The position numbers and the translations under genes are program-made. Of a stretch of 64,000 nucleotides of DNA, positions 1-19,815 are shown piece by piece (within the stretch, counting starts at the first letter, position 1; each line of letters starts with the position of its first letter). The stretch covers positions 3,534,001 through 3,598,000 of the forward strand of contig NC_014734.1 of NCBI RefSeq assembly GCF_000183135.1, in the 5' to 3' direction. This DNA is from Paludibacter propionicigenes WB4 (GTDB lineage Bacteria; Bacteroidota; Bacteroidia; Bacteroidales; Paludibacteraceae). Below the pieces are notes generated by a model. The model did no database searches. It had not been told where the DNA came from and saw only the letters and a program-made list of their open reading frames with translations.

Positions 1-77
1 TAGCCCGTATGTGGCAATTGTTTGGTGACGAAACGGAGGAAATTATTAATGAATTGAATGAGGTGTTAGCAGCGTAA
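1..77 (+). CDS. C-terminal end of an upstream gene, possibly HsdR
   Basis: Only the last 24 codons are visible, read in the frame starting at base 3 and ending at TAA 75-77. The tail reads ...MWQLFGDETEEIINELNEVLAA. An LFG(D) motif followed by an ELNE-LAA ending resembles, from memory, C-termini of type I restriction endonuclease R subunits, and HsdS and HsdM follow 1.6 kb downstream. The identification as hsdR is therefore inference from a short tail plus context; any other protein with an acidic helical C-terminus would fit. Confidence 0.4.
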   Translation, partial: ARMWQLFGDETEEIINELNEVLAA

Positions 78-80
78 TTT

Positions 81-156
81 ATAAGGTTCAAAGCTTATAT
101 AGACTAAATATAAGGTTTATTGCTTATAATTGCCAAATATAAGGATAATTCCTTAT
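81..156. promoter_or_regulatory. Three phased palindromic operators upstream of satD
   Basis: Three copies of ATAAG-N8-CTTAT lie at 81-98, 110-127 and 139-156, starting exactly 29 bp apart. The third extends to a perfect 11-bp inverted repeat with a 4-base spacer (135-160). Half sites read TATAAGG and (C/G)CTTATA. The last copy lies between the -33 and -7 elements of the predicted promoter, which is what a repressor site looks like. The most obvious binder is the helix-turn-helix of the adjacent SatD, but that is inference. Confidence 0.75.
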
Positions 157-161
157 ATTTG
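130..161 (+). promoter_or_regulatory. Bacteroidota-type promoter for the satD operon
   Basis: A TTG at 130-132 is followed after 21 bases by TATATTTG at 154-161, matching the TTG-N19/21-TAnnTTTG promoter pattern of the phylum. Transcription would start near 168, leaving a leader of about 135 nt. The third palindrome overlaps it. Confidence 0.6.
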
Positions 162-303
162 TGGTTGAAAAATAACGAATAGATTAAAGGAAAATATCTA
201 AAAAAACACGACAAATAAATATTGACGCATAAGGAGATGATAAAATTTTCACAAACCTCTCTCTGTACTCCCTTTGGGAGCTAGGAGGCTAAATTATAAA
301 CAG

Positions 304-981
304 ATGAAAATAGCCGTTATTACAGGAGATATTGTAAACTCCACCGAAATGAGTCCTGAAAACAAAAAGATTTTTTTTGTTTCTCTTTTCGCCTACTTTA
401 AAGAATTAGAAGTGTTTTATAACGTAAAAATTGAAATGTTCAGAGGTGATAGCTTTCAATGCATGGTTAGTAACATTCAACATGCATTGCAAATAGCATT
501 AGAAATAAAGACATTTATTCGAAGCACCGTCTCAGAGAAACAGGCTGTAAATCTAAAAATCAAAGACAACCTTTACAAGGCAACAGGACAAATCCGTTAC
601 AATGCAAGAATATCTATAGGCATTGGGGAAATGGATTTTGTACATGATTCTGCATTAACCTCCGATGGCACTGCATTTCGACTTTCAGGCCGACAGTTGG
701 ACGAAATGAAAAGCAAGAAGCAGTTTTTAATAATTTCAACAGATGATAAATATCATAGGGAACTACAAATGGAATCTGTATTGCTGGATGTGATAATGAA
801 CAATAATACGGTTCAACAAAGTGACGTAATAAATAAAAAACTTAGGGGTTATATAGAAAAAGACATAGCCGGGATGTTGAACATCAAACAACCTGCTGTT
901 AACCAACGATTGAATGCCGGAAACTGGCATGCCATAGATACTATGTTGAAGCACTTTAAATTACTGTACAGCAATGGATAA
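304..981 (+). CDS. satD: SatD family protein: cyclase-like domain plus C-terminal HTH
   Basis: A 225-residue protein starting at ATG 304 (MKIAVITGDIVNST); the longer reading from 274 adds ten residues (MGARRLNYKQ) without family character. The N-terminal half carries motifs in the order seen in class III nucleotidyl cyclases: GDIVNST (8-14, candidate metal Asp9), RGDSFQ (47-52, second candidate Asp49), ARISIGIG (101-108) and GTAFRLSGRQLD (122-133). Residues about 184-206 look like a helix-turn-helix. I recognise the whole as SatD family, known by name from streptococcal acid tolerance; its biochemical activity is not established to my knowledge. It overlaps the next start by 8 bases (ATGGATAA), so the two are translationally coupled. 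Autoregulation through the three upstream palindromes is inferred. Confidence 0.8.
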   Translation: MKIAVITGDIVNSTEMSPENKKIFFVSLFAYFKELEVFYNVKIEMFRGDSFQCMVSNIQHALQIALEIKTFIRSTVSEKQAVNLKIKDNLYKATGQIRYNARISIGIGEMDFVHDSALTSDGTAFRLSGRQLDEMKSKKQFLIISTDDKYHRELQMESVLLDVIMNNNTVQQSDVINKKLRGYIEKDIAGMLNIKQPAVNQRLNAGNWHAIDTMLKHFKLLYSNG

Positions 982-1702
982 ATCATGGCTTATTTTTACC
1001 TCCGAAGAAGGTAATTTTCTTATTCGTTTGTTGCTGGCACATTTTCTGGCCGATTTTGCATTCCAAACCCGGAAAATGGTTGAGCATAAAAGATGGTTCT
1101 CCTTACAGATGCTGTTGCATATTGCCATTGTGTTTGCATTAACATTCATATTCACTTTTTCATGGAAAATAGCCATCATCGTATCTGTATTGCACTGGTT
1201 GTTAGACGCCCTAAAGAAACAGTTTGAGAATAGCAGTTGGAATAAAGCCCTGTTGTTTTCCATCGACCAACTTTTACATCTGCTTGTGCTACTGTTTGTA
1301 TGGCTGATCAGATTCAACCTGCTGGATAAAATACAGCAAGCCATCGTACTGCCTTTTACAAATTACAGAATAAGCCTTATTTTGCTATCGTATGTAGTTG
1401 TTTTCTGGCCTGTTGGGTATCTTATCGGATTTTTGCTGAAAAAATTTAATCATCCCGGGCAGTCGGACAAAGCAGGACAGATGATAGGGCAATTTGAACG
1501 CGTTATTATCCTCACGTTGGTGTTGTTGCAACAATACGAAGCCATAGGTTTTCTGATTACCGGCAAAAGCATTATCCGCTTTTCAAGTACCAATCAGGAT
1601 GCTAAAAGTGAATATGTTCTGCTCGGCACCATGCTTAGTTACGCGCTGGCCATAGCAATGGGTGTGGTGGTGCGGATCATGTTGGATTTTCCTGTAAAAT
1701 AA
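974..1702 (+). CDS. DUF3307 family membrane protein
   Basis: A 242-residue, strongly hydrophobic protein with six or seven predicted membrane segments (roughly 14-31, 45-66, 67-83, 96-117, 130-155, 173-196, 210-232). The N-terminal signature H23-FLAD27-FAFQ31 and a later HWLLDALKK segment match the DUF3307 family as I know it; the conserved His, Asp and Gln inside membrane segments suggest a functional polar site. It starts inside the last codons of satD, so the two products are probably made together, consistent with a cytoplasmic sensor/regulator working with a membrane partner. Only 19 bases separate it from hsdS. Function unknown. Confidence 0.8.
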   Translation: MDKSWLIFTSEEGNFLIRLLLAHFLADFAFQTRKMVEHKRWFSLQMLLHIAIVFALTFIFTFSWKIAIIVSVLHWLLDALKKQFENSSWNKALLFSIDQLLHLLVLLFVWLIRFNLLDKIQQAIVLPFTNYRISLILLSYVVVFWPVGYLIGFLLKKFNHPGQSDKAGQMIGQFERVIILTLVLLQQYEAIGFLITGKSIIRFSSTNQDAKSEYVLLGTMLSYALAIAMGVVVRIMLDFPVK

Positions 1703-1721: not shown

Positions 1722-3596
1722 ATGAGCGAACTAAATAATATACCAAAACACTGGCAAGTAAAAAGACTTTTTGAAATAGGTAAAGTTATTAATGGTGATA
1801 GGGGTAAAAACTATCCATCTAGGGCACATTATGTTGAATATGGCGTTCCATTTGTATCTGCTGGTAATATTGAAGAATACTATATAAATAGTAATAACCT
1901 TAACTTTATTTCAAAAGATAAATTTGAAGCACTAAACAATGGGAAGTTACAAAACAGAGACATTATTTACTGTTTGAGAGGTTCTTTAGGTAAATGTGCA
2001 ATTTCAAATTTGAATGAGGGTGCAATATCATCTTCATTATGTATTTTAAGATTAGATCAGACCATTGAAGAAAGGTATGTGTACTACTATTTGTGTAGTC
2101 CATTTGGTAGAGCAGAGATTCTTAAGCATGATAATGGCACAGCACAACCTAATTTGTCTGCAAAGAATTTCTCAAATTATATTATCCCTATTCCCCCTCT
2201 CCACGAACAACTCTCCATAGTCTCCAAAATAGAAGAACTACTGAGCGACCTCGAAAACGGCAAACAACAACTCCTTACCGCACAACAGCAACTAAAAGTG
2301 TATCGACAGAGTTTGCTGAAGGCGGCGTTTGAAGGGCGTTTGACCAATAAAGAGGTGAAAGATGGGGAATTGCCTGAGGGGTGGAAATGGGTGACAATTA
2401 CTGATTTGGCTGAAAATAATAAACACGCTTTAAAAGCTGGGCCATTTGGCTCTGCTCTTAAAAAAGAGTTTTATGTTGAAACTGGATATAAGATTTATGG
2501 TCAGGAACAGGTTATTATTGATAATCCTAACTTTGGAGATTATTATGTAAATGAGGAAAAATACCAAGAATTAAAATCGTGTCGTATTAAGCCATTCGAT
2601 ATTTTAATTAGTTTGGTCGGAACTGTTGGCAAGGTACTTATTTTACCAGAAAATTGTATGGATGGAATTATCAATCCTCGACTTATTAAGATATCATTAA
2701 ACAGACAGAAATACTTGCCTAAATTTTTCAAATATTATTTTGAAAGTTCTTCAGTCAAAGCACATTATAAATCACAGGCTCAAGGAACAACGATGGATGT
2801 GTTGAATCTGGGTATTATAAAGAAAGTACCTTTTCCATTAACCACACTTGAAGAACAACAAAGAGTTATTGATGAATTAGAAAGCAAACTCACCGTTTGC
2901 GATAAGATAGAAGAAACCATCAACCAAAGCTTGCAGCAGGCTGAGACATTGAAGCAGAGTATATTGAAAAAGGCGTTTGAAGGGAGGTTGGTAAAACCTC
3001 AGCCGACAAAGGTTGTAGCGAAACCAAAAAATGAGTATTTCTATCAAATGCAGCTTTTAGCTCTTATTGCCAAGGCTTCAAAAGAACATAACATTGAGCA
3101 TGGAGAAATGACCTTAGCTAAGTATGCTTATTTGTTAGATAAAGTATATGGTATTCCTACTTACTACGATTATAATCGTTGGCATTTAGGTCCATATCCT
3201 CCTGAAATGAAAAAGGCAATAAATAACAAACAATATTTTTCTCGAAAATCTAATCATATCATTGTTGTTAATGAAGATAAACTATTGAAATATACTAATT
3301 CATACGAAACAAATGTTATAGATGCAATTGATGATTTAGCTTCTATTTTTGAAAAATATCCGGTTAAAGAAAGAGCTGACAAGACAGAACTATTAGCTAC
3401 TGTTTGTAAAGTTGTTGAAGATATAAAAACGACTGATATTACTGAAGTGCGTAAATCCATGCAAGACTGGAAAATAGAGTTAGATAACTGCCCTTTCAAA
3501 AACAAGGCAGAGAAATTCAGCATCGAAGAAACCGAAAAATGTTTGAAGTTCTTAGTTCAACGTGAATGGATAGCAAAACTAATAAACAAAAATTGA
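1722..3596 (+). CDS. hsdS: Type I restriction-modification specificity subunit HsdS with C-terminal extension
   Basis: 624 residues, longer than the usual 400-450 of HsdS. It has two target-recognition domains (about 5-165 and 215-375), each followed by the conserved coiled spacer: EEL-LSDLENGKQQL...LLKAAFEGRL around 165-208 and ELESKL...ILKKAFEGRLV around 385-426. Each recognition domain should contact one half of a bipartite DNA site, the spacers setting the distance and binding HsdM. Residues about 430-624 are an extra domain with a YLLDKVYGIP...WHLGPYPPEMKKAI segment reminiscent of the Panacea/SocA-like (DUF4065) fold. The recognition domains are visibly more AT-rich than the spacers. It overlaps the longest hsdM reading, and the order S before M is less common than M before S. 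Confidence 0.92.
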   Translation: MSELNNIPKHWQVKRLFEIGKVINGDRGKNYPSRAHYVEYGVPFVSAGNIEEYYINSNNLNFISKDKFEALNNGKLQNRDIIYCLRGSLGKCAISNLNEGAISSSLCILRLDQTIEERYVYYYLCSPFGRAEILKHDNGTAQPNLSAKNFSNYIIPIPPLHEQLSIVSKIEELLSDLENGKQQLLTAQQQLKVYRQSLLKAAFEGRLTNKEVKDGELPEGWKWVTITDLAENNKHALKAGPFGSALKKEFYVETGYKIYGQEQVIIDNPNFGDYYVNEEKYQELKSCRIKPFDILISLVGTVGKVLILPENCMDGIINPRLIKISLNRQKYLPKFFKYYFESSSVKAHYKSQAQGTTMDVLNLGIIKKVPFPLTTLEEQQRVIDELESKLTVCDKIEETINQSLQQAETLKQSILKKAFEGRLVKPQPTKVVAKPKNEYFYQMQLLALIAKASKEHNIEHGEMTLAKYAYLLDKVYGIPTYYDYNRWHLGPYPPEMKKAINNKQYFSRKSNHIIVVNEDKLLKYTNSYETNVIDAIDDLASIFEKYPVKERADKTELLATVCKVVEDIKTTDITEVRKSMQDWKIELDNCPFKNKAEKFSIEETEKCLKFLVQREWIAKLINKN

Positions 3597-7772: not shown

Positions 7773-10700
7773 TCATTTAGTTACAATTACTTTGAATACA
7801 TAGTCTGTTCCATTGGCCGTGACAACATGACCTGCATAAACTCCAGAAACTGGAGGCAGACTCAATGAATTAGAAGCTTCTACTTTATTTGAACGATGTA
7901 TTAAATTACCTTTCATATCAACAACAGTTAGCTTAGCTCCTTTTAGTTCTATATTATCAAATCCACTCATTTGAACCGTAACCTCTTGATTTATTTGAAC
8001 CGGATTAGGATATGCTTTTACACTCTTCTTTACCGGACTGTTGAATGGTTTTTGGCAAGTCTTGATTTTTTGTCCATCTTTCGTTGTGACTTCAACAGAA
8101 TAGGAGCCAACCAATCCAGCCGGATCGCAATAAAATTGCTCTGTTGCACCCTGAATAGCAATACCATCTTTATACCATTGATAAGCTGTAAAGCGATTAT
8201 TACTATTATCACATAGTACAACGTCGTCAAACTTCTTAACTATATAATCTGAGCTTACATTGACAACAAACTGGAACTCATAAGCTGCACTTTCAATACC
8301 AAATTCATCTTTAAATTGTAAAGTACCTTTGTATACCCCATCAGGTATTCCATTTGGAATGGCAAATGAGAGTGTTCCTGTATTTGATGATGTAGGCAAA
8401 TTCGTATAATCAATGTTATGAATGCCTACAGCTATTGCAGAAACAGCAAAAGTAATCTTGTATTGAGTCGGAGTTCCTGTTAATACGGAATACCCAAACA
8501 TAACATTCGTATTTTCACAACCCTCTATCGGAGTGGCATTATTGATAGCATCAATTGTAATGGCTGGGATATCTGAAGAAGTAATTTGACCATCTCCATC
8601 AGAATCACCCGCGATTTCAGTTCCATCGATTTTTCCATCTCCATTAGTGTCTCCTACAATTTCGGGAGAAGTGACTTTACCATCTCCATTGGTATCACCG
8701 GCGATTTCAGGAGAAGTAATCTTTCCATCGCCATTCGCGTCACCTGCTATTTCAGTTCCATCGATTTTACCATCACCGTTAGTGTCTCCTGCTATTTCTG
8801 GAGAAGTGACTTTTCCATCTCCATCCTTGTCTCCTGCTATTTCAGTTCCATCGATCTTGCCATCTCCATTAGTGTCTCCTCCAATTTCGGGAGAAGTGAC
8901 TTTTCCATCTCCATCCTTGTCTCCTGCTATTTCAGTTCCATCGATCTTGCCATCACCATTGGTATCACCGACTATTTCAGGAGAGATAATCTTTCCATCT
9001 CCATCCTTATCTCCTGCGATTTCAGTTCCATCGACCTTGCCATCACCATTGGTATCACCGGCTATTTCGGGAGAGGTAATCTTTCCATCGCCATCCTTAT
9101 CTCCTGCGATTTCAGTTCCGTCGATCTTGCCATCACCATTGGTATCACCGACTATTTCAGGAGAGATAATCTTTCCATCTCCATCCTTATCTCCTGCGAT
9201 TTCAGTTCCATCGACCTTGCCATCACCATTGGTATCGCCGGCTATTTCGGGAGAGGTAATCTTTCCATCGCCATCCTTATCTCCTGCGATTTCAGTTCCG
9301 TCGATCTTGCCATCACCGTTAGTATCACCGGCGATTTCAGGGGCAGTAATTTTTCCATCACCATTAATGTCTCCGGCTATTTCTGGAGCTGTAATCTTAC
9401 CATCTCCATCTGCATCTCCAGCTATCTCTGGGGCAGTGATTTTTCCATCGCCATTCGTGTCACCAACGATTTCAGTTCCGTCGATCTTACCATCACCATT
9501 AGTATCACCGACTATTTCAGGGGAAGTGATTTTACCGTCACCATTAATGTCCCCAGCTATTTCTGGATCTGTAATCTTACCATCACCATCTGCATCTCCA
9601 GCTATCTCTGGGGCAGTGATTTTTCCATCGCCATTCGTGTCACCAACGATTTCAGTTCCGTCAATCTTGCCATCACCGTTAGTATCACCGGCGATTTCAG
9701 GGGCAGTGATTTTTCCATCACCATTAATGTCTCCTGCTATTTCTGGAGCTGTAATCTTACCATCACCATCTGCATCTCCAGCTATCTCTGGGACAGTGAT
9801 TTTTCCATCGCCATTCGTGTCACCAGCAATTTCAGTTCCATCGATCATACCATCACCGTTAGTATCACCGACTATTTCAGGGGAAGTGATTTTACCGTCA
9901 CCATTAATGTCTCCTGCTATTTCTGGAGCTGTAATCTTACCATCACCATCTGCATCTCCAGCTATCTCTGGGGCAGTGATTTTTCCATCGCCATTCGTGT
10001 CACCAACGATTTCAGTTCCGTCAATCTTGCCATCACCGTTAGTATCACCGGCTATTTCAGGGGCAGTGATTTTTCCATCACCATTAATGTCTCCGGCTAT
10101 TTCTGGAGCTGTAATCTTACCATCACCATCTGCATCTCCAGCTATCTCTGGGGCAGTGATTTTTCCATCGCCATTCGTGTCACCAACGATTTCAGTTCCG
10201 TCAATCTTGCCATCACCGTTAGTATCACCGGCTATTTCAGGGGCAGTGATTTTTCCATCACCATTAATGTCTCCGGCTATTTCTGGAGCTGTAATCTTAC
10301 CATCACCATCTGCATCTCCAGCTATCTCTGGGGCAGTGATTTTTCCATCGCCATTCGTGTCACCAGCAATTTCAGTTCCAACGATCATACCATCACCGTT
10401 AGTATCACCGACTATTTCAGGGGAAGTGATTTTACCGTCACCATTAATGTCTCCTGCTATTTCGGGAGCTGTAATCTTACCATCACCATCTGCATCTCCA
10501 GCTATCTCTGGGGCAGTGATTTTTCCATCGCCATTCGTGTCACCAACGATTTCAGTTCCGTCGATCTTGCCATCACCGTTAGTATCACCGGCGATTTCAG
10601 GGGCAGTAATTTTTCCATCACCATCCTTATCTCCTGCGATTTCAGTTTCGTCGATCTTGCCATCACCATTGGTATCGCCGGCTATTTCTGGAAAAGTGAT

Positions 10701-13700
10701 TTTTCCATCTCCATTTGTATCACCTGCAATAACAGGAGCTTCACTAATCCTTATATTCAATGTAAAGCTTGTACTACCGGTTGCATTAGTAGCGGTTACC
10801 AAATAATTGGTAGCTGCACTGGCTGCTGTCGGTGTTCCACTGATGGTTCCGCTTGATGCGTTGAGCGTCAATCCTGAAGGTAAAGCTGTGTTCAAACTGT
10901 AACTGTCTACGCTGCCTGTTACACTTGGAGTCAGGCTAACGGAACTGCCTACGCTGTACACTACCGGAGTAGCATACTTCAGATTGCTTGGGGCAACACC
11001 CGTGACTCCGCCTGCGGCATTCACCGTTATGCTGATTATAGCACTGGTACTGCCTGTCTCGTTGCTCGCTGTTACAGTATAATTTGTGGCTCCACTCACT
11101 GCTGTTGGAGTGCCTGTGATAATTCCTGTTACGGCATCGAGCGTTAAGCCATTTGGTAAGGCAGGACTAACAGAGTAACTGCTTACACTGCCTGTTACGG
11201 TCGGACTTAATGCTGTGATAGCGGCTCCTACGGCATAAACGGACGGTGAAGCATAGCTCAGATTACTTGGAGCAATACCTGTGATTCCGCCTGCTGCGTT
11301 AACCGTAAGGATGACATCAAAGCTGGTACTGCCATAGCTGTTCGTGGCTGTGATCTGATAAACAGATACCGCTGTGGCTGCGGTTGGAGTGCCTGTGATA
11401 CTTCCTGTCACGGCGTTCAATGTCAAACCACTTGGTAAAGCAGGACTTACTGTGTAACTGCTTACGGCTCCTCCGCTTACCGTTGAGGTCAATGGAGTGA
11501 TAGCGGTGCCTACGGCATAAACAGCCGGGGAAGCATAACTCAAATTTGCCGGAGCAACACCCGTGGTGACACTACCACTGTTGATAGTGATATTAACCTC
11601 AAAAGCTGTGTTCCCATAACTATTTCTGGCTGTAATTTGATAACTTGATTCCGAAGTAACTGAAGTTGGAGTACCACTGATAACTCCTGTAGTATTGTCA
11701 ATGGTTAAACCCGTCGGCAATGCAGGAATCACACTATAGTTAGTTGCTGCACCACCTTCAATACTTGGAGAAAGAGCTGTTATAGCCTTCCCTTCAATAT
11801 AAACAAGCGGAGTAGTATAGCTTAAATTACTTGGACCTACACCTGTAGTTATTGTTGGATCATTAACCGTAATATCTACAGAAAAAGTTGTACTTCCATC
11901 GTCATTGCTTGCTGTAACTAAATAGGTTGATTCAGCACTTACAACCGTTGGAGTTCCGCTAATAACACCTGTATTACTATTAATTGATAAACCTGTAGGT
12001 AGAGCAGGGTTTATGGTATAATTTGTTGCAATCCCGCCACTAACACTTGGACTCAAAGCAGTGATAGCTTTACCTGCTACAAAGACGAGTGGTGTAGCAT
12101 AACTTAAATTAGCCGGGGGCACTCCAACTGTTACTATCGGATCATTTACAGTGATGTTCAAAGAGAAAGTAGCACTTCCTTCCGTATTGCTGGCTGTAAC
12201 TGTATAATTAGAAGCAGCGACTGTGGCTGTTGGAGTTCCACTGATAATGCCGGTTGCATGATCGATACTTAAACCAACGGGTAAAGCAGGACTGACACTA
12301 TAATCTGTCACATATCCACCTTGTACAGTAGGATTTAATGATTTTATAGATTTACCTGCAACATAAACAACCGGTGAAGTATAAACTAAATTACTTGGAG
12401 TTATATTCGTTACGGTCAGCGATTGCGTAACATCAGTCGCTGCGTTATAATTGGCATCCCCTTCTTGTTTGGCGGTAATACTGGCGTTGCCTACTCCAAC
12501 AATTTTCACTGTACTGCCTGTGATTGTTGCTATAGCAGTGTTGCTGCTCGTATAAGCTACCGGAAGTCCTGAGCTCGCTGTTGCTGTAAGTTCAAAATCA
12601 GGATCAATATAAGTCTTAGACGTTAATGCATTAAAGGTAATTGTCTGATTACGTTTCGCAATGGTCAAATCTTTAGTTACAAAAGTTTCTGCATAATTAC
12701 CGCCATAAGTATATGTTCCCTGATTAATAGCATAAGTACCAGCATTTTCTCCTGCCGCTCTTGTTAATGAACCACTTGCAGCATCACTACCTTGAATTGT
12801 TCCAGATGTTACCTGAGCAGTTAATGTAGGATCAGCATCACCATACATCTTGTTTTTTGCATCAGCAGTAATCGTGATAGCTCGTTTTTGTATGGACAAA
12901 TTATTGTTTACAAAAGTTTCAGCATAATTGCTACCATAAGTGTAAGTATTTTTATTGATAGAATAAGTCCCTACTGCTTCGCCCGTCAATCTGGACAAAG
13001 AACCTGTAGCAACATCCGAACCCTGAATAGCCCCTGATGTTATTTGAGCAGTAAATACAGGATCGGTATCGCCATACATTTTAGATTTTGCATCGGCGGT
13101 AATGGTTATTGTACGTTTTCCAATGGTCAAATCCTTACTTACGAAGGTTTCAGTATAGTTGCTTCCATAAGTATATGTTCCCTGATTGATGGCATAAGTA
13201 CCTACATTTTCACCGGGAACTCTGCTCATTGAACCTGTGGCAACATCCCCCGTTTTAATCGTTCCTGAAATTACCTGAGCTGTAAATAGAGGATCAATAT
13301 CTCCATATGTTTTAGATTTTGTATCGGCCGTGATGGTAATAGTTTGTTTAGCAATTGTCAAATCCTTACTTACAAAAGTTTCTGTATAATTGCTTCCGTA
13401 TGTATATGTTCCCTGATTGATAGCATAAATGCCTACATTTTCACCGGAAACTCTGGTCATTGAACCTGCGGCAACATCACCTGTTTTAATTGTACCTGAA
13501 GTTACCTGAGCACTAAATGCCGGATCAACATCGCCATATGCTTTGGATTTTGCATCAGCAGTAATGCTTATTGTACGCTTTCCAATGTCCAAATCGTTAC
13601 TTACAAAAGTTTCTGTGTAGTTGCTTCCGTAAGTATATGTTCCCTGATTGATAGCATAAGTACCTACATTTTCGCCCAAAACCCGGGTCATTGAACCTGT

Positions 13701-16700
13701 AGCAACATCACCTGTTTTAATTGTACCTGAAGTTACCTGAGCAGTAAACAGAGGATCAATATCACCATATGTTTTAGATTTTGTGTCGGCAGTAATGGTA
13801 ATAGTTTGTTTAGCAATTGTCAAATCCTTACTTACAAAAGTTTCTATATAATTACTACCGTAACTGTAAGTCCCTTGATTGATAGCATAAGTGCCTACGT
13901 TTTCTCCTATAATTCTTGCTAACGAGCCGCCTGCGACATCACTTCCTTGAATTGCACCAGAAGTTATTTGGACTGTAAATACTGGATCAACATCACCATA
14001 TATTTTAGATTTTGCATCAGCAGTTATGGTAATAGCGCGAGCTGTTATGTCAGCGGTCAAACCACTTGGTTGTCCAGACAATAGATAATTATTTTTATCT
14101 GTACCACCTAAAATATATCCAGTTACACTTACAGGTATTGCCATTCCCACGTTTTTATCTGCAAACATAGCTATACCACCATCCAAAGTCACATCGTCTG
14201 AACCTGCGACTTCACTCAAAGTTGCACCATTCAATGTAGCAGTAGTTGTAGCATCATAAGGTTTATTAGCTACTGTGGCTCCCGTTATTGTCAATGTTCT
14301 TTTTATTATGTCAGCAGACAAACCACTTGGTTGGGCTGATATGACATAATTCCCAGCCTTGGTTCCTGTCAATGAAAAACCACTGGCAGTTACGTTTTTC
14401 GATGTACCAACATTTTTATTGTCAAATACGCCGGTTCCCCCTGTCAGAGTAACATCATCAGAACCAACTTTACCTGTTAATGTAGCGCCATTCAAAGTCG
14501 CTGCGTTTGTTCCATCATAAACTTTGTTTGGTACAGTTATCCCTGATATAACCAACTCTTTCTTATTTACAGTCAGCAATTGACTCACCTGATTTGCAGC
14601 ACTGTAATTTGCATCCCCTTCTTGATTAGCATATATTGTACAACTTCCAGCCGCAATAATTGTGATTATGGATCCATTTACTCCGGTACATGTAGCTATA
14701 GTATTATCTGAACTACTGAATGTAACAGGTTTACTCGAAGCCCCACCAACAGCTGATACATCATAAGGAAGATCCCCATAAGTCTTGGTAGTGAGCGCCC
14801 CAAAGGAAATAGATTGCGTATTTACTCCAACTATTAAAGTTGCTGTAGTAGATACTGCTGCATAATTATCATCAAAACCTTGATTTGCAGTTAATGTTGT
14901 TGTACCAGTTCCTACAATTGTCACAATATTACCAATTATAGATGCAACAGAAGTATCACTACTGTTATAAGTGAATGATCCGGTACTAGAAGAAGACGCA
15001 TTTAAAGTGAAACTAGCATCACCATAATTCTTTGTGAGATCATAAAAATTAGTAATCATTGGAGTGGCTTTACCAACCGTTAACGTTTGAGTTGCATCAG
15101 TTGCAGGGTTCCAAGCAGCATCACCGGCTTGCGAAGCTTTAATAACAACAGCACCTGCACCAGTAATGGATAATTCGGTACCCGATATTGTTGCAGGACC
15201 ACTAACAACCGTATAACTAATAGCTAGAGGAGAATCTGTCGTAGCTTTTCCAGCTAAATCAACATTCAACCCCGGAGAATAAATAACACTACTTAACGCA
15301 TTAAACGTGATTGTTTGATTTGACTTTACAACATCAAAAGTATAACTTTCACTTTTCGAATTGTAATTATCGTCACCTGCCTGATTAAGGTTTATAACTA
15401 CAGTTCCTGTTTGTCCGATACTTACCAACTGATTGCTCCCATTTAATGTTGCAGCGCTACCAGAACCCAGTGAAATGGATACAGGTAATCCTGAAGAAGA
15501 AATTGCTGTCACCTGAACCGGCGTTGAGTTAAAATCTTTAAGTGGTAATGTTCCTACAGGCAATGGACTTAATGTAAGTACCTGGTTAGCCTTTCCTACA
15601 GTTAAAGTTCGTACTACATCTGTTGCAGCAGTATAATTTGAATTACCACTCTGACTGGCTGTTATGTCCGTACTCCCTGCACTTACAATGGTTACTGTAT
15701 TCCCCGAAATTGTTGCAACAGATGTATTACTACTAACATAACTTACCGGAAGACCTGAACTTGCTGTTGCTGTCAGGTTAAAATTCGGATCATTATAAGT
15801 CTTCGTTGGTAAAAGATCAAAAGTAATAGTCTGTGCCTTTGAAGTGATATCTAATGTGCCATTGACATAGTCGATGTCATAATTTGTAGAAGTAAGACCA
15901 CTAGGTATGATGGTATAATTTGTTCCTACATTAGTTGCAACTCTCGCAGTTCCATTGTACACCAACGTACCCCCTAAGCTAGATGTATCATCTCCTGTTG
16001 CAAAACCACTATAAGTTACAGTAAACGGACTATAAACTGAACCATCATAGACTTTTGTTTTATCTTCAGCAGTAATGGTTAATGTCTTCTTAGTTATGTC
16101 TAACTTACCAGCCACAAATGTAATGGTGTAATTGGAAGATATTACTCCCTCAGGTATTATCACATATCCTATTCCTACTGCTGTAGCGGTTGTGGCTGTG
16201 CCCGAATATGCAAGAGTTCCACCTAAATTACCGACACTCTCTCCACTGATAAATCCTGAATAAGTTACCGTAAACGGACTGAATACCGAACCATCATACA
16301 CCTTACTCTTATTATCGGCTGTTACTGTCAACGATTTCTTGTCTACGGTAAAGCTCTGACTTACGTCACTGGCTGCACTATAATCTGCACTGGCTGCCTG
16401 ACTTGCGGTGATTGTCGTTGTTCCGGCACCCACAATATGAATCTGACCTGATACAATAGTGGCAACAGCGGTATTAGAGCTTACATAAGTTATGGCATTT
16501 ATACCTGAGGTTACTGAAGTGGCACCGGGACCAAAATCTGCATCGCCATAAGTTTTGTTTGACAAAGCACCGAAAGTAATGCTCTGAGTTGCCTTGGTAA
16601 TATCCAATGTTCCATTGACAAAACTGATAGCATAATTACTTGATGTCAATCCTGAAGGAGTGATAACATATCCTGTACCCACTGCTGTAGCGGTTGTGGC

Positions 16701-19700
16701 TGTGCCCGAATATGCAAGAGTTCCACCTAAATTACCGACACTCTCTCCACTGATAAATCCTGAATAAGTTACCGTAAACGGACTGAATACCGAACCATCA
16801 TACACCTTACTCTTATTATCGGCTGTTACTGTCAACGATTTCTTGTCTACGGTAAAGCTCTGACTTACGTCACTGGCTGCACTATAATCTGCACTGGCTG
16901 CCTGACTTGCGGTGATTGTCGTTGTTCCGGCACCCACAATATGAATCTGACCTGATACAATAGTGGCAACAGCGGTATTAGAGCTTACATAAGTTATGGC
17001 ATTTATACCTGAGGTTACTGAAGTGGCACCGGGACCAAAATCTGCATCGCCATAAGTTTTGTTTGACAAAGCACCGAAAGTAATACTCTGAGTTGCCTTG
17101 GTAATATCCAATGTTCCATTGACAAAACTGATAGCATAATTACTTGATGTCAATCCTGAAGGAGTGATAACATATCCTGTACCCACTGCTGTAGCGGTTG
17201 TGGCTGTGCCCGAATATGCAAGAGTTCCACCTAAATTACCGACACTCTCTCCACTGATAAATCCTGAATAAGTTACCGTAAACGGACTGAATACCGAACC
17301 ATCATACACCTTACTCTTATTATCGGCTGTTACTGTCAACGATTTCTTGTCTACGGTAAAGCTCTGACTTACGTCACTGGCTGCACTATAATCTGCACTG
17401 GCTGCCTGACTTGCGGTGATTGTCGTTGTTCCGGCACCCACAATATGAATCTGACCTGATACAATAGTGGCAACAGCGGTATTAGAGCTTACATAAGTTA
17501 TGGCATTTATACCTGAGGTTACTGAAGTGGCACCGGGACCAAAATCTGCATCGCCATAAGTTTTGTTTGACAAAGCACCGAAAGTAATGCTCTGAGTTGC
17601 CTTGGTAATATCCAATGTTCCATTGACAAAACTGATAGCATAATTACTTGATGTCAATCCTGAAGGAGTGATAACATATCCTATTCCTACTGCTGTAGCG
17701 GTTGTGGCTGTGCCCGAATATGCAAGAGTTCCACCTAAATTACCGACACTCTCTCCACTGATAAATCCTGAATAAGTTACCGTAAACGGACTGAATACCG
17801 AACCATCATACACCTTACTCTTATTATCGGCCGTAACTGTCAACGATTTCTTGTCTACGGTAAAGCTCTGACTTACGTCACTGGCTGCACTATAATCTGC
17901 ACTGGCTGCCTGACTTGCGGTGATTGTCGTTGTTCCGGCACCCACAATATGAATCTGACCTGATACAATAGTGGCAACAGCGGTATTAGAGCTTACATAA
18001 GTTATGGCATTTATACCTGAGGTCAATGAAGTGCCACCGGGACCAAAATCTGCATCGCCATAAGTCTTGTTTGACAAAGCACCGAAAGTAATGCTCTGGC
18101 TTGCCTTGGTAATATCCAATGTTCCGTTGACAAAACTGATAGCATAGTTACTTGATGTCAACCCTGAAGGAGTGATAACATATCCTGTACCCACTGCTGT
18201 AGCGGTTGTGGCTGTGCCCGAATATGCAAGAGTTCCACCTAAATTACCGACACTCTCTCCACTGATAAATCCTGAATAAGTTACCGTAAACGGACTGAAT
18301 ACCGAACCATCATACACCTTACTCTTATTATCGGCTGTTACTGTCAACGATTTCTTGTCTACGGTAAAGCTCTGACTTACGTCACTGGCTGCACTATAAT
18401 CTGCACTGGCTGCCTGACTTGCGGTGATTGTCGTTGTTCCGGCACCCACAATATGAATCTGACCTGATACAATAGTGGCAACAGCGGTATTAGAGCTTAC
18501 ATAAGTTATGGCATTTATACCTGAGGTCAATGAAGTGCCACCGGGACCAAAATCTGCATCGCCATAAGTCTTGTTTGACAAAGCACCGAAAGTAATGCTC
18601 TGGCTTGCCTTGGTAATATCCAATGTTCCGTTGACAAAACTGATAGCATAGTTACTTGATGTCAACCCTGAAGGAGTGATAACATATCCTGTACCCACTG
18701 CTGTAGCTGTTGTGGCTGTGCCCGAATATGCAAGAGTTCCACCTAAATTACCGACACTCTCTCCACTGATAAATCCTGAATAAGTTACCGTAAACGGACT
18801 GAATACCGAACCATCATACACCTTACTCTTATTATCGGCTGTTACTGTCAACGATTTCTTGTCTACGGTAAACGTTTGTCCAACCTGAGCCGCTGCACTG
18901 TAATTGGTATTACCTGCCTGATTTGCATAAATGGTACAACTTCCTGCAGCAATTATAGTTATTGTAGAACCATTTGTTCCTGTACAAGTAGCTACATTAT
19001 TATCCGAACTGGTAAATGTCACCGGATTACCTGATGCCCCCCCTGTAGCTGAAACAGTAAAGGATGCATCTCCATAAGTTTTGGATGATAAGCTGTTAAA
19101 GGAGATCGACTGAGTTATCTGATTTACAACAAACGCTCCAGATACAGCACTCGTTAATGTACCACAATCTCCGTTTACAATACAGTAGTAATAAAGTGTT
19201 CCAATTGTATTAGCTTGTGGTGTATAGCTATTAGTTTGCGCACCATTGTCAGTTCCAAGCGAAGTTCCTCCGGTTGTACTTGCAGAGCTATTGCTATACC
19301 ATTGGTACGTTAATCCCGAACCCGTTGCTGTAACCGATATGGAGGTGAAAGTACCTCCATAGGTTATAGTTTGGGTATCAGTTGACTGACTACTTATTGC
19401 GAATGCTGGTTTAAGGGTAACGTTTGCCGTTCCGGTCATATCTGTTGTACCTAACGGACTGCTACCTTTGACAGTATAAGTACCAATCAGTTGATTACCG
19501 AATGAGATAGCTGACCCCGTACCGTCAACGGTAGGTGTCTGAGCAACAGCTCCTTTATATAGCGTATAGGTAACGCCTGTTTCTGATCCTGCAAGTCCAA
19601 CTGCAACTCCTGTACCACCTGTGCAGTATGAGCCGGTGCCGGTTACAGCAAAGGGTGCCGGAGGATCACCCCCGGGACTTTGTGCCACAACACTAAAATT

Positions 19701-19751
19701 AGCTAACATCGTAAAGGCTAATAGCAGGAAAATTGTCTTAAATTTGCTCAT
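7773..19751 (-). CDS. Giant T9SS-exported MBG/YDG/Ig-like/EF-loop repeat protein (3992 residues)
   Basis: I choose ATG 19751 because it gives a good signal peptide (MSKFKTIFLLLAFTMLANFSVVAQ); ATG 19796 would add 15 residues ahead of it. Order from the N-terminus: Ig-like region; six MBG-type units alternating with five Ig-like units, forming 504-bp DNA repeats; further Ig-like units; two YDG domains (KVYDGTNAATLNGA, PYDATTTATLNGA); six MBG units of about 78 residues (ITITADAKSKxYGDxDP); six putative-Ig units (SPALPxGLxxxxxTGxISGTPT); about 48 EF-hand-loop repeats of 15 residues; a short globular domain; and a T9SS type A sorting domain (VKAYPNPVQINQEV... ending FKVIVTK). This architecture indicates an extracellular rod or adhesin. 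It lies 64 bases after the preceding giant gene, so the two are probably cotranscribed. Ligand unknown. Confidence 0.9.
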   Translation of the reverse strand: MSKFKTIFLLLAFTMLANFSVVAQSPGGDPPAPFAVTGTGSYCTGGTGVAVGLAGSETGVTYTLYKGAVAQTPTVDGTGSAISFGNQLIGTYTVKGSSPLGTTDMTGTANVTLKPAFAISSQSTDTQTITYGGTFTSISVTATGSGLTYQWYSNSSASTTGGTSLGTDNGAQTNSYTPQANTIGTLYYYCIVNGDCGTLTSAVSGAFVVNQITQSISFNSLSSKTYGDASFTVSATGGASGNPVTFTSSDNNVATCTGTNGSTITIIAAGSCTIYANQAGNTNYSAAAQVGQTFTVDKKSLTVTADNKSKVYDGSVFSPFTVTYSGFISGESVGNLGGTLAYSGTATTATAVGTGYVITPSGLTSSNYAISFVNGTLDITKASQSITFGALSNKTYGDADFGPGGTSLTSGINAITYVSSNTAVATIVSGQIHIVGAGTTTITASQAASADYSAASDVSQSFTVDKKSLTVTADNKSKVYDGSVFSPFTVTYSGFISGESVGNLGGTLAYSGTATTATAVGTGYVITPSGLTSSNYAISFVNGTLDITKASQSITFGALSNKTYGDADFGPGGTSLTSGINAITYVSSNTAVATIVSGQIHIVGAGTTTITASQAASADYSAASDVSQSFTVDKKSLTVTADNKSKVYDGSVFSPFTVTYSGFISGESVGNLGGTLAYSGTATTATAVGIGYVITPSGLTSSNYAISFVNGTLDITKATQSITFGALSNKTYGDADFGPGATSVTSGINAITYVSSNTAVATIVSGQIHIVGAGTTTITASQAASADYSAASDVSQSFTVDKKSLTVTADNKSKVYDGSVFSPFTVTYSGFISGESVGNLGGTLAYSGTATTATAVGTGYVITPSGLTSSNYAISFVNGTLDITKATQSITFGALSNKTYGDADFGPGATSVTSGINAITYVSSNTAVATIVSGQIHIVGAGTTTITASQAASADYSAASDVSQSFTVDKKSLTVTADNKSKVYDGSVFSPFTVTYSGFISGESVGNLGGTLAYSGTATTATAVGTGYVITPSGLTSSNYAISFVNGTLDITKATQSITFGALSNKTYGDADFGPGATSVTSGINAITYVSSNTAVATIVSGQIHIVGAGTTTITASQAASADYSAASDVSQSFTVDKKSLTVTADNKSKVYDGSVFSPFTVTYSGFISGESVGNLGGTLAYSGTATTATAVGIGYVIIPEGVISSNYTITFVAGKLDITKKTLTITAEDKTKVYDGSVYSPFTVTYSGFATGDDTSSLGGTLVYNGTARVATNVGTNYTIIPSGLTSTNYDIDYVNGTLDITSKAQTITFDLLPTKTYNDPNFNLTATASSGLPVSYVSSNTSVATISGNTVTIVSAGSTDITASQSGNSNYTAATDVVRTLTVGKANQVLTLSPLPVGTLPLKDFNSTPVQVTAISSSGLPVSISLGSGSAATLNGSNQLVSIGQTGTVVINLNQAGDDNYNSKSESYTFDVVKSNQTITFNALSSVIYSPGLNVDLAGKATTDSPLAISYTVVSGPATISGTELSITGAGAVVIKASQAGDAAWNPATDATQTLTVGKATPMITNFYDLTKNYGDASFTLNASSSSTGSFTYNSSDTSVASIIGNIVTIVGTGTTTLTANQGFDDNYAAVSTTATLIVGVNTQSISFGALTTKTYGDLPYDVSAVGGASSKPVTFSSSDNTIATCTGVNGSIITIIAAGSCTIYANQEGDANYSAANQVSQLLTVNKKELVISGITVPNKVYDGTNAATLNGATLTGKVGSDDVTLTGGTGVFDNKNVGTSKNVTASGFSLTGTKAGNYVISAQPSGLSADIIKRTLTITGATVANKPYDATTTATLNGATLSEVAGSDDVTLDGGIAMFADKNVGMAIPVSVTGYILGGTDKNNYLLSGQPSGLTADITARAITITADAKSKIYGDVDPVFTVQITSGAIQGSDVAGGSLARIIGENVGTYAINQGTYSYGSNYIETFVSKDLTIAKQTITITADTKSKTYGDIDPLFTAQVTSGTIKTGDVATGSMTRVLGENVGTYAINQGTYTYGSNYTETFVSNDLDIGKRTISITADAKSKAYGDVDPAFSAQVTSGTIKTGDVAAGSMTRVSGENVGIYAINQGTYTYGSNYTETFVSKDLTIAKQTITITADTKSKTYGDIDPLFTAQVISGTIKTGDVATGSMSRVPGENVGTYAINQGTYTYGSNYTETFVSKDLTIGKRTITITADAKSKMYGDTDPVFTAQITSGAIQGSDVATGSLSRLTGEAVGTYSINKNTYTYGSNYAETFVNNNLSIQKRAITITADAKNKMYGDADPTLTAQVTSGTIQGSDAASGSLTRAAGENAGTYAINQGTYTYGGNYAETFVTKDLTIAKRNQTITFNALTSKTYIDPDFELTATASSGLPVAYTSSNTAIATITGSTVKIVGVGNASITAKQEGDANYNAATDVTQSLTVTNITPSNLVYTSPVVYVAGKSIKSLNPTVQGGYVTDYSVSPALPVGLSIDHATGIISGTPTATVAASNYTVTASNTEGSATFSLNITVNDPIVTVGVPPANLSYATPLVFVAGKAITALSPSVSGGIATNYTINPALPTGLSINSNTGVISGTPTVVSAESTYLVTASNDDGSTTFSVDITVNDPTITTGVGPSNLSYTTPLVYIEGKAITALSPSIEGGAATNYSVIPALPTGLTIDNTTGVISGTPTSVTSESSYQITARNSYGNTAFEVNITINSGSVTTGVAPANLSYASPAVYAVGTAITPLTSTVSGGAVSSYTVSPALPSGLTLNAVTGSITGTPTAATAVSVYQITATNSYGSTSFDVILTVNAAGGITGIAPSNLSYASPSVYAVGAAITALSPTVTGSVSSYSVSPALPNGLTLDAVTGIITGTPTAVSGATNYTVTASNETGSTSAIISITVNAAGGVTGVAPSNLKYATPVVYSVGSSVSLTPSVTGSVDSYSLNTALPSGLTLNASSGTISGTPTAASAATNYLVTATNATGSTSFTLNIRISEAPVIAGDTNGDGKITFPEIAGDTNGDGKIDETEIAGDKDGDGKITAPEIAGDTNGDGKIDGTEIVGDTNGDGKITAPEIAGDADGDGKITAPEIAGDINGDGKITSPEIVGDTNGDGMIVGTEIAGDTNGDGKITAPEIAGDADGDGKITAPEIAGDINGDGKITAPEIAGDTNGDGKIDGTEIVGDTNGDGKITAPEIAGDADGDGKITAPEIAGDINGDGKITAPEIAGDTNGDGKIDGTEIVGDTNGDGKITAPEIAGDADGDGKITAPEIAGDINGDGKITSPEIVGDTNGDGMIDGTEIAGDTNGDGKITVPEIAGDADGDGKITAPEIAGDINGDGKITAPEIAGDTNGDGKIDGTEIVGDTNGDGKITAPEIAGDADGDGKITDPEIAGDINGDGKITSPEIVGDTNGDGKIDGTEIVGDTNGDGKITAPEIAGDADGDGKITAPEIAGDINGDGKITAPEIAGDTNGDGKIDGTEIAGDKDGDGKITSPEIAGDTNGDGKVDGTEIAGDKDGDGKIISPEIVGDTNGDGKIDGTEIAGDKDGDGKITSPEIAGDTNGDGKVDGTEIAGDKDGDGKIISPEIVGDTNGDGKIDGTEIAGDKDGDGKVTSPEIGGDTNGDGKIDGTEIAGDKDGDGKVTSPEIAGDTNGDGKIDGTEIAGDANGDGKITSPEIAGDTNGDGKVTSPEIVGDTNGDGKIDGTEIAGDSDGDGQITSSDIPAITIDAINNATPIEGCENTNVMFGYSVLTGTPTQYKITFAVSAIAVGIHNIDYTNLPTSSNTGTLSFAIPNGIPDGVYKGTLQFKDEFGIESAAYEFQFVVNVSSDYIVKKFDDVVLCDNSNNRFTAYQWYKDGIAIQGATEQFYCDPAGLVGSYSVEVTTKDGQKIKTCQKPFNSPVKKSVKAYPNPVQINQEVTVQMSGFDNIELKGAKLTVVDMKGNLIHRSNKVEASNSLSLPPVSGVYAGHVVTANGTDYVFKVIVTK
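8575..10735 (-). repeat. About 48 tandem 45-bp repeats encoding 15-residue EF-hand loops
   Basis: Inside the giant gene, units such as GDTNGDGKITAPEIA repeat head to tail. Each contains a canonical 12-residue calcium loop: D1, N3, D5, K7 backbone position, I8, E12. Four units form a 180-bp higher-order repeat (TNGDGKI, ADGDGKI, INGDGKI, TNGDGKI types) that recurs with identical phase at 9361, 9541, 9721, 9901, 10081, 10261 and 10441. A second 180-bp pair lies at 8941-9300. There are no flanking E/F helices as in classical EF-hands. Confidence 0.9.
10740..12420 (-). repeat. Six putative-Ig (He_PIG-like) units in the giant protein
   Basis: Six tandem units of roughly 80-85 residues, each with the sequence order NLxYxxPxVYxxG, then SPALPxGLxxxxxTGxISGTPT, then ATNxxGSxxFxxxITVN. 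The C-terminal three are more alike at DNA level and more GC-rich than the N-terminal three. Such units are usual extracellular spacers. Confidence 0.8.
12640..14040 (-). repeat. Six MBG-type units of about 234 bp
   Basis: Six tandem units of about 78 residues beginning ITITADAKSKxYGDxDPxFTAQ and ending with YGSNYxETFVxxDLxI. Similar but not identical at DNA level, so older than the 504-bp array upstream. Confidence 0.8.
16345..18864 (-). repeat. Five near-identical 504-bp tandem repeats
   Basis: A landmark (ACGGTAAAGCTCTGAC on the + strand) recurs at 16345, 16849, 17353, 17857 and 18361, and the related unit starts at 18865: a constant 504-bp pitch. Each unit encodes 168 residues, an MBG-type domain (KVYDGSVFSPFTVTYSGF) plus an Ig-like domain (ITFGALSNKTYGDADFGPG). 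The copies differ at only a handful of bases, pointing to recent duplication or ongoing homogenisation. Confidence 0.92.
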
Positions 19752-19815
19752 AATCGTATCTTTTATATCGTTAACGATCGGGATTATTGTCTTCATCTTG
19801 TTTCAGTTCAGTTGT

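Follow-up and report, generated by a model that had tools for sequence, protein, structure and literature searches.

Palindrome arrays with a 28- or 29-bp pitch before SatD-like and DUF3307 genes as predicted SatD operators

Related systems and the Paludibacter locus

Autoregulated two-gene modules of the toxin-antitoxin type are operons with tandem operators. Tandem operators for a cognate helix-turn-helix (HTH) protein are an already known kind of arrangement, and satD loci share with these modules an HTH gene in first position, a second gene that usually overlaps it, and palindromic candidate operators over the promoter. The satD arrays differ by a fixed 28/29-bp pitch combined with highly diverse half-sites, and toxicity of the second gene product, DUF3307, is putative. 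With the class III nucleotidyl cyclases and the Cas10/GGDEF palm domains, SatD shares the fold and two aspartates (D9 and D49). It differs from class III cyclases by its fused HTH and perhaps also by the transition-state Asn/Arg residues, whose presumed positions (126 and 130) are not conserved. In Pycsar (pyrimidine cyclase and membrane effector) a gene for a cyclase-like protein likewise adjoins a gene for a membrane protein. SatD differs from this system by its HTH and operator array; its cyclase activity is putative and DUF3307 has no clear fold match.

The SatD family itself (PF16264) is linked to the sat operon of Streptococcus mutans. The available passages of the published work on SatD assign it no tested molecular role, and a table in one paper labels it a 'DNA-binding protein', with no operator given there (PMC12005413). 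The initial annotation of the locus knew of no operator for SatD-family proteins, and a search of the open literature, with most subscription journals outside its scope, likewise found no description. Three things are new here: the family, the persistence of a 28/29-bp pitch through Bacteria and Archaea despite changing letters, and a cyclase/Cas10-type palm that has an operator array of its own. The palindromes are predicted to form an operator array read by the SatD-like protein encoded just downstream (probability about 0.85).

The window analysed is a stretch of 64,000 nucleotides from Paludibacter propionicigenes WB4. The features at its start are:

1..77, + strand: 3' end of hsdR, type I restriction subunit (named by eye), a 928-aa ORF starting before the window
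81..98, no strand: candidate operator 1, ATAAG-N8-CTTAT (pattern match)
110..127, no strand: candidate operator 2, +29 bp from operator 1 (pattern match)
130..132, + strand: candidate -33 element (TTG), assigned by eye, 21 nt ahead of the -7 box
139..156, no strand: candidate operator 3, +29 bp from operator 2, within the -33/-7 region (pattern match)
154..161, + strand: candidate -7 box TATATTTG (TAnnTTTG), starting 6 bp past the axis of operator 3
304..981, + strand: SatD-like protein, 225 aa, cyclase/Cas10-palm fold (about residues 1-145) and C-terminal helix-turn-helix
883..921, + strand: recognition-helix codons, residues 194-206 (Q196, P197, A198 and Q201 covary with the half-site)
974..1702, + strand: DUF3307 multi-helix membrane protein (PF11750, E 3.6e-17), its start overlapping the satD end
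1722..3596, + strand: hsdS, type I specificity subunit, a neighbour outside the array system
from 3566: hsdM

The gene at 304 had been called satD, a name that fits by kinship only. The window protein matches no Pfam family at E 0.001, nor up to E 10 as far as the HMMER filters pass, and a search of its own genome with the PF16264 model was empty but carries little weight, its 14 control genomes being equally silent. The protein nevertheless joins the family through its relatives, as PF16264 matches 47 of 63 aligned homologues (alignment A3, full-length, E 0.01). Since there is no direct match, the gene is named "SatD-like".

ATAAG-N8-CTTAT had been placed at 81, 110 and 139, with a different N8 in each copy. 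The three starts are exact, and the spacers (GTTCAAAG, GTTTATTG and GATAATTC) are all different. The array begins 3 bp past the hsdR stop codon, which ends at 77. The window contains 5 exact matches to the pattern, against 0.12 expected from shuffles (0/100 reach 5). Single palindromes are not rare in the genome and carry little meaning, because the reversed control pattern occurs 15 times and the palindrome itself at 8 places in 3,685,504 bp. A paired-operator pattern with a 29-bp pitch and at most 3 mismatches has 2 genome matches, both perfect and both in this array. Its reversed control also has 2 matches at the 3-mismatch tolerance, and the weight therefore rests on the perfect match and the third copy, not on the count. 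The unusual feature is three copies in step, and the satD array is the sole such array found in the P. propionicigenes genome.

Two single palindromes, at 50821-50838 of the window and at 2994564-2994581 of the genome, have the form ATAAGTANACATACTTAT, longer than the satD half-site. These may be sites of a different regulator.

Arrays at other satD loci and on plasmids

Relatives were collected with a ten-sequence profile, which matched 115 of 395 sampled phylum genomes and 36 of 300 family genomes, some of them partially. Closer alignment gave 80 loci in named records of Bacteroidota, Gammaproteobacteria, Planctomycetota, Verrucomicrobiota, Chloroflexota, deltaproteobacterial groups and archaea. 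To find arrays with no motif supplied, the 250 nt ahead of each gene were scored for ungapped similarity to themselves, over all lags between 15 and 60. For the first 58 satD genes the best lag was 29 in 30 and 28 in 19; a score of at least 10 at lag 28/29 was reached by 49 of the 58 upstream regions vs 6 of 676 stretches taken from other parts of these loci. Among 195 satD genes, before redundancy removal, 81 scored at least 10 at lag 28 and 65 at lag 29 (together 146/195), a different lag was found for nine genes, including lags of 56, 57 and 58, and the other 40 stayed under a score of 10.

Dropping proteins at least 75% identical left 140 satD genes, and 645 regions upstream of other ORFs of at least 150 aa in the same loci served as controls. 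A palindrome array with a 28/29-bp pitch (score at least 10) is found upstream of 105 of the 140 genes, as against 17 of the 645 controls; at a score of 20 the numbers are 63 and 5. At least 7 of the 10 control matches listed at a score of 12 or more are the same loci's own arrays, just before or behind the DUF3307 gene. Similar palindromes upstream of other satD genes, whose absence would have counted against the initial annotation, were found; TATAAGG-N6-CCTTATA, offered there as the motif to search for, is not the conserved feature, which is instead the pitch and the palindrome geometry.

In eight loci that have no array before satD (L113, L117, L127, L158, L176, L181, L184 and L205) there is one between satD and DUF3307. 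The array of L127 is weak, and that of L184 (Opitutaceae) consists of perfect GCAACC/GGTTGC palindromes. In total 113/140 loci carry an array before satD or before DUF3307, and the lag scan detected none in either place in 27/140. A DUF3307-like ORF follows satD on the same strand in 134/140 loci. The Pfam DUF3307 model matches 125 of the 132 next ORFs scanned, and 8 of the 140 have no ORF of 150 aa there. By group, assigned from record titles and with redundancy kept, upstream arrays occur in 13/14 Gammaproteobacteria, 3/4 Planctomycetota, 2/4 archaea, 0/3 Verrucomicrobiota and 0/4 Desulfobacterota-like genes. The best lag of the remaining two archaeal genes is also 29, below the threshold. 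L158 in addition has a strong repeat of 28 bp, with a score of 80, ahead of another ORF, within the 250 nt before position 1844 of the + strand.

The 29-bp pitch is exact in the window, but elsewhere 28 bp is as common (55 vs 53 of 108 non-redundant arrays). Three copies are commonest (63/108), two occur in 26/108, and the maximum is 13. Both pitch classes can be read as 5-mer-N8-5-mer, in which case they differ by one base in the spacing from operator to operator (N10 or N11), with the caveat that arrays were placed on the even axis with the best agreement at offsets k4-k9 and the N8 reading outside the window is partly imposed. In 29-bp arrays parity fixes the even axis, and for 28-bp arrays a rule was needed to pick between two axes. 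A first, circular palindrome score, by which only 58/149 arrays passed their own 99% control, was replaced by a fixed-axis measure. In 138 arrays of 2 to 5 copies, identity between copies of the same array is 86-91% at k5-k8, 72% at k4 and 78% at k9, vs 52-55% at offsets 0-3, 10 and 11 (N8 and outside); within the N8 the range is 53-55%. From the identity at k5-k8 compared with N8, the half-sites look selected. They are also diverse, with 35 distinct 5-mers among 89 arrays and ATAAG in 25. Across loci the geometry is kept while the half-site letters vary.

Ten plasmid records outside the discovery set, seven from the SatD search and three added later, were tested in the same way and the array was present in 7/10. 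Among the first seven it was found in five: L225, L227 and L229 (lag 28; L227 and L229 are close kin), L228 (lag 29) and L224 (lag 28, with the start corrected). The lag scan detected no array in L226 and L230. Of the later records, Escherichia coli pEC34A has lag 29 with a score of 11 and a Haloplanus archaeal plasmid lag 29 with a score of 14. L235, close kin of pEC34A, also shows lag 29 at a score of 9, below the threshold. DUF3307 is annotated beside SatD in 7/7 of the first plasmids and in L231, L232 and L235. The Haloplanus relative is named 'SatD family protein' by NCBI and is followed by DUF3307. In pEC34A (L231, 3,770 bp) the SatD-DUF3307 pair is the main cargo beside Rop, MobA and one hypothetical gene (PLSDB gene table, incomplete).

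The pair makes up nearly the sole annotated cargo of L231 and L235, very small E. coli and Klebsiella plasmids. In L226, the Sphingomonas insulae plasmid without an array, it adjoins genes of a Pycsar effector family, a cyclase and a TIR-domain protein. No SatD relative was confirmed in viral contigs and none was found in phage records, nor was DUF3307 found in phage records with the window query. One phage paper lists a DUF3307 ORF.

If the pair were a mobile two-gene cassette, the arrays could be its ends or recombination sites. Own-motif arrays do occur downstream of DUF3307 as well (L064 and L021; by lag scan L020 and L063), and the pair is embedded in other operons, flanked by hsdR and hsdS in the window and by hyf/nuo-like genes in L020 (by eye). 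Of 124 loci tested, however, only 4 showed own-motif arrays outside the upstream region, in two cases at the satD end, and the commonest offset to the promoter box is fixed, which makes the cassette highly improbable.

The downstream same-motif 29-bp arrays lie at about 2883-2980 in L020 and about 2960-3110 in L063 and L064. The two genes flanking the L020 pair resemble, by eye, hydrogenase/NADH-dehydrogenase subunits. A link of the pair to restriction-modification was considered and rejected. With the window hsd proteins as queries, an hsd-like ORF was found in only 6/139 loci, a lower bound as the flanks examined span about 1.2 to 5 kb, and L014 and L018 were added by eye. The restriction-modification setting looks mostly incidental.

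Covariation of half-sites with the recognition helix

Mutual information between SatD residues and half-site positions was computed for 89 arrays whose SatD proteins are less than 75% identical. The top pairs are Q196-k8 (z 13.1), A198-k5 (12.3), Q201-k4 (11.9) and P197-k7 (11.3). Nine of the top 10 pairs fall within residues 194-206, that is, in 13 of about 195 residues tested, and the order of residues along the helix parallels the order of bases along the DNA. Half-site distance correlates with recognition-helix distance (Mantel r 0.53, p 0.0025, the minimum for 400 permutations). The correlation is still 0.52 with palm distance removed, and that of the palm given the helix is -0.07. An earlier run, in which the 28-bp axes were unresolved, gave a weaker but like result (Mantel 0.36, and 0.39 given the palm).

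The pattern recurs in subsets of the data. Seven of the top 10 pairs lie in the recognition helix for 29-bp arrays alone, six for 28-bp arrays alone (here with a residual palm association of 0.19, p 0.01) and five for proteins below 50% identity. Certain tendencies can be read off: Q201 goes with G, K201 with C, A198 with A, S/T198 with G and Q196 with A. The window fits these with Q196, A198 and Q201 beside ATAAG. A natural swap is provided by L096 and L090 (82% identical), in which residues 194-206 differ only at 195-196 (NQ to KR) and the half-site changes from ATTAC to GTTAC, at its outer base. The change of N195-Q196 to K-R goes with ATTAC to GTTAC in relatives that are 74-82% identical. 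In nearest-neighbour prediction of the half-site, the recognition helix recovers 3.38 of 5 bases vs 3.28 for the palm and 2.28 at random; below 50% identity the values are 3.07 for the helix and 3.12 for the palm. The helix predicts hardly better than the palm, and kinship therefore explains part of the match.

The covariation ties the array to SatD itself. The arrays would otherwise have to be sites of another host-encoded regulator, or a structural DNA element, with satD a mere neighbour. Single palindromes elsewhere in the genome, no rarer than their reversed control, would suit that explanation. It is very unlikely given that the recognition helix of SatD, unlike the palm when all arrays are taken together, covaries with the half-sites, and that arrays precede satD or DUF3307 in Bacteroidota, Gammaproteobacteria, Planctomycetota, one Verrucomicrobiota and archaea. 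The proposal in the initial annotation that the palindromes could be the recognition site of the SatD HTH is thus supported by both the 105/140 arrays and the covariation. As a large natural collection of HTH helices paired with their half-sites, the arrays could also reveal a recognition code.

Promoter position and proposed function of the gene pair

The -33 TTG and the TAnnTTTG -7 box were assigned from the Bacteroidota promoter consensus. The last palindrome had been described as filling the gap between them. It does sit between 130-132 and 154-161, yet it also reaches into the box, whose first three bases are shared with its right half-site (152-156). A TAnnTTTG box is present nearby in 45 of the 108 non-redundant arrays. 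Its commonest offset from the last axis is +6 bp, as in the window (12/108), and the next commonest is +8 (5/108). The last axis lies 156 nt from the satD ATG, above the usual distance (median 36 nt in the 108 arrays), and 142 nt separate the TATATTTG box (154-161) from the SatD-like gene (304).

SatD dimers would use the C-terminal HTH to bind each palindrome. Dimers on adjacent operators, at the fixed 29-bp pitch, would probably touch and may bind cooperatively. Because the last operator overlaps the promoter, repression of the satD-DUF3307 unit is the most likely effect of the array and would keep DUF3307 low. Most of the weight given to SatD as the reader of the array falls on repression. 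SatD could also bind the array as an activator, recruited upstream, with the last copy overlapping the promoter by chance. Most operators do stand upstream of the promoter box; activation is still unlikely, as the window's last operator runs into the -7 box, an overlap with the same +6 offset in 12/108 arrays, and the median distance to the start codon of only 36 nt is often close for an activator site.

The palindromes might also act in RNA, as transcribed hairpins, since a stem is possible for each copy. This is the least probable alternative, because the window copies lie upstream of or in the box at 154-161, outside the transcript from that promoter, and the half-site letters covary with a DNA-binding helix. 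The RNA leader at 168-310 is not special in its fold (z -0.84), and an Rfam search gave a single match under its gathering score (E 0.46). Just ahead of the satD start the leader contains a stem-loop, CTCCC-TTT-GGGAG with outer pairs (window 257-288), and is no more stable than shuffles.

Fold matches place a cyclase homology domain (cyclase/Cas10-palm) in SatD in addition to the HTH, and include the cyclic UMP synthase 7r65, the uridylate cyclase 8jsz and the cytidylate cyclase 8jsf, presumably all Pycsar enzymes. D9 and D49, assigned by motif as the two metal-binding aspartates of class III cyclases, are invariant in alignment A3. The columns at residues 126 and 130, aligned by eye and presumably the transition-state Asn/Arg positions, are variable there. 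With both metal-ligand aspartates kept, the N-terminal palm probably binds (or makes) a nucleotide that alters DNA binding. A nucleotide- or metal-dependent change in the palm would then open the promoter of its own operon, joining a cyclase/Cas10-type palm domain to direct transcription control. The array thus offers SatD a testable role as a DNA-binding autoregulator.

DUF3307 is the probable controlled output, as the arrays found before DUF3307 where they are missing before satD also suggest. Pfam lists it as a protein of unknown function, and at E 0.001 no PDB structure matches its model. Invariant polar residues in its alignment A5 (H74, D78, D98, Q99, H102, E175, R176, K198, S199, R202 and E213) would suit an active or ion site better than a simple anchor. 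A pangenome study reports satD as an essential gene of Streptococcus pyogenes strains belonging to three emm types, although it is carried by only 178/249 genomes (PMC11323703). An essential yet accessory satD could resemble the repressor of a harmful partner. Together with the pEC34A cargo and the Sphingomonas pair beside Pycsar-effector, cyclase and TIR genes, this hints that DUF3307 may be a harmful or defensive effector, a suggestion we hold tentatively and at less than even odds.

The recurring spacing with differing letters before related gene pairs points to an undescribed, widespread self-regulating gene switch. In a broader picture, held at well under even odds, SatD-DUF3307 might be a nucleotide-sensing membrane-effector module of the defence or addiction type, widespread in Bacteria and Archaea. 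The palm protein would coat the array as a filament with a rigid 28/29-bp step, keep the DUF3307 gene shut and release it when the palm binds or makes a nucleotide signal, with half-sites re-coded in each lineage and no cross-talk.

Two further observations concern the rest of the window. HsdS (1722-3596) is long at 624 aa, with about 190 additional residues at its C-terminus that by eye resemble a Panacea/SocA-type domain. On the minus strand, a 4007-aa ORF (7773-19796) is rich in near-identical internal repeats and includes a long tract of DGDGKI-type repeats.
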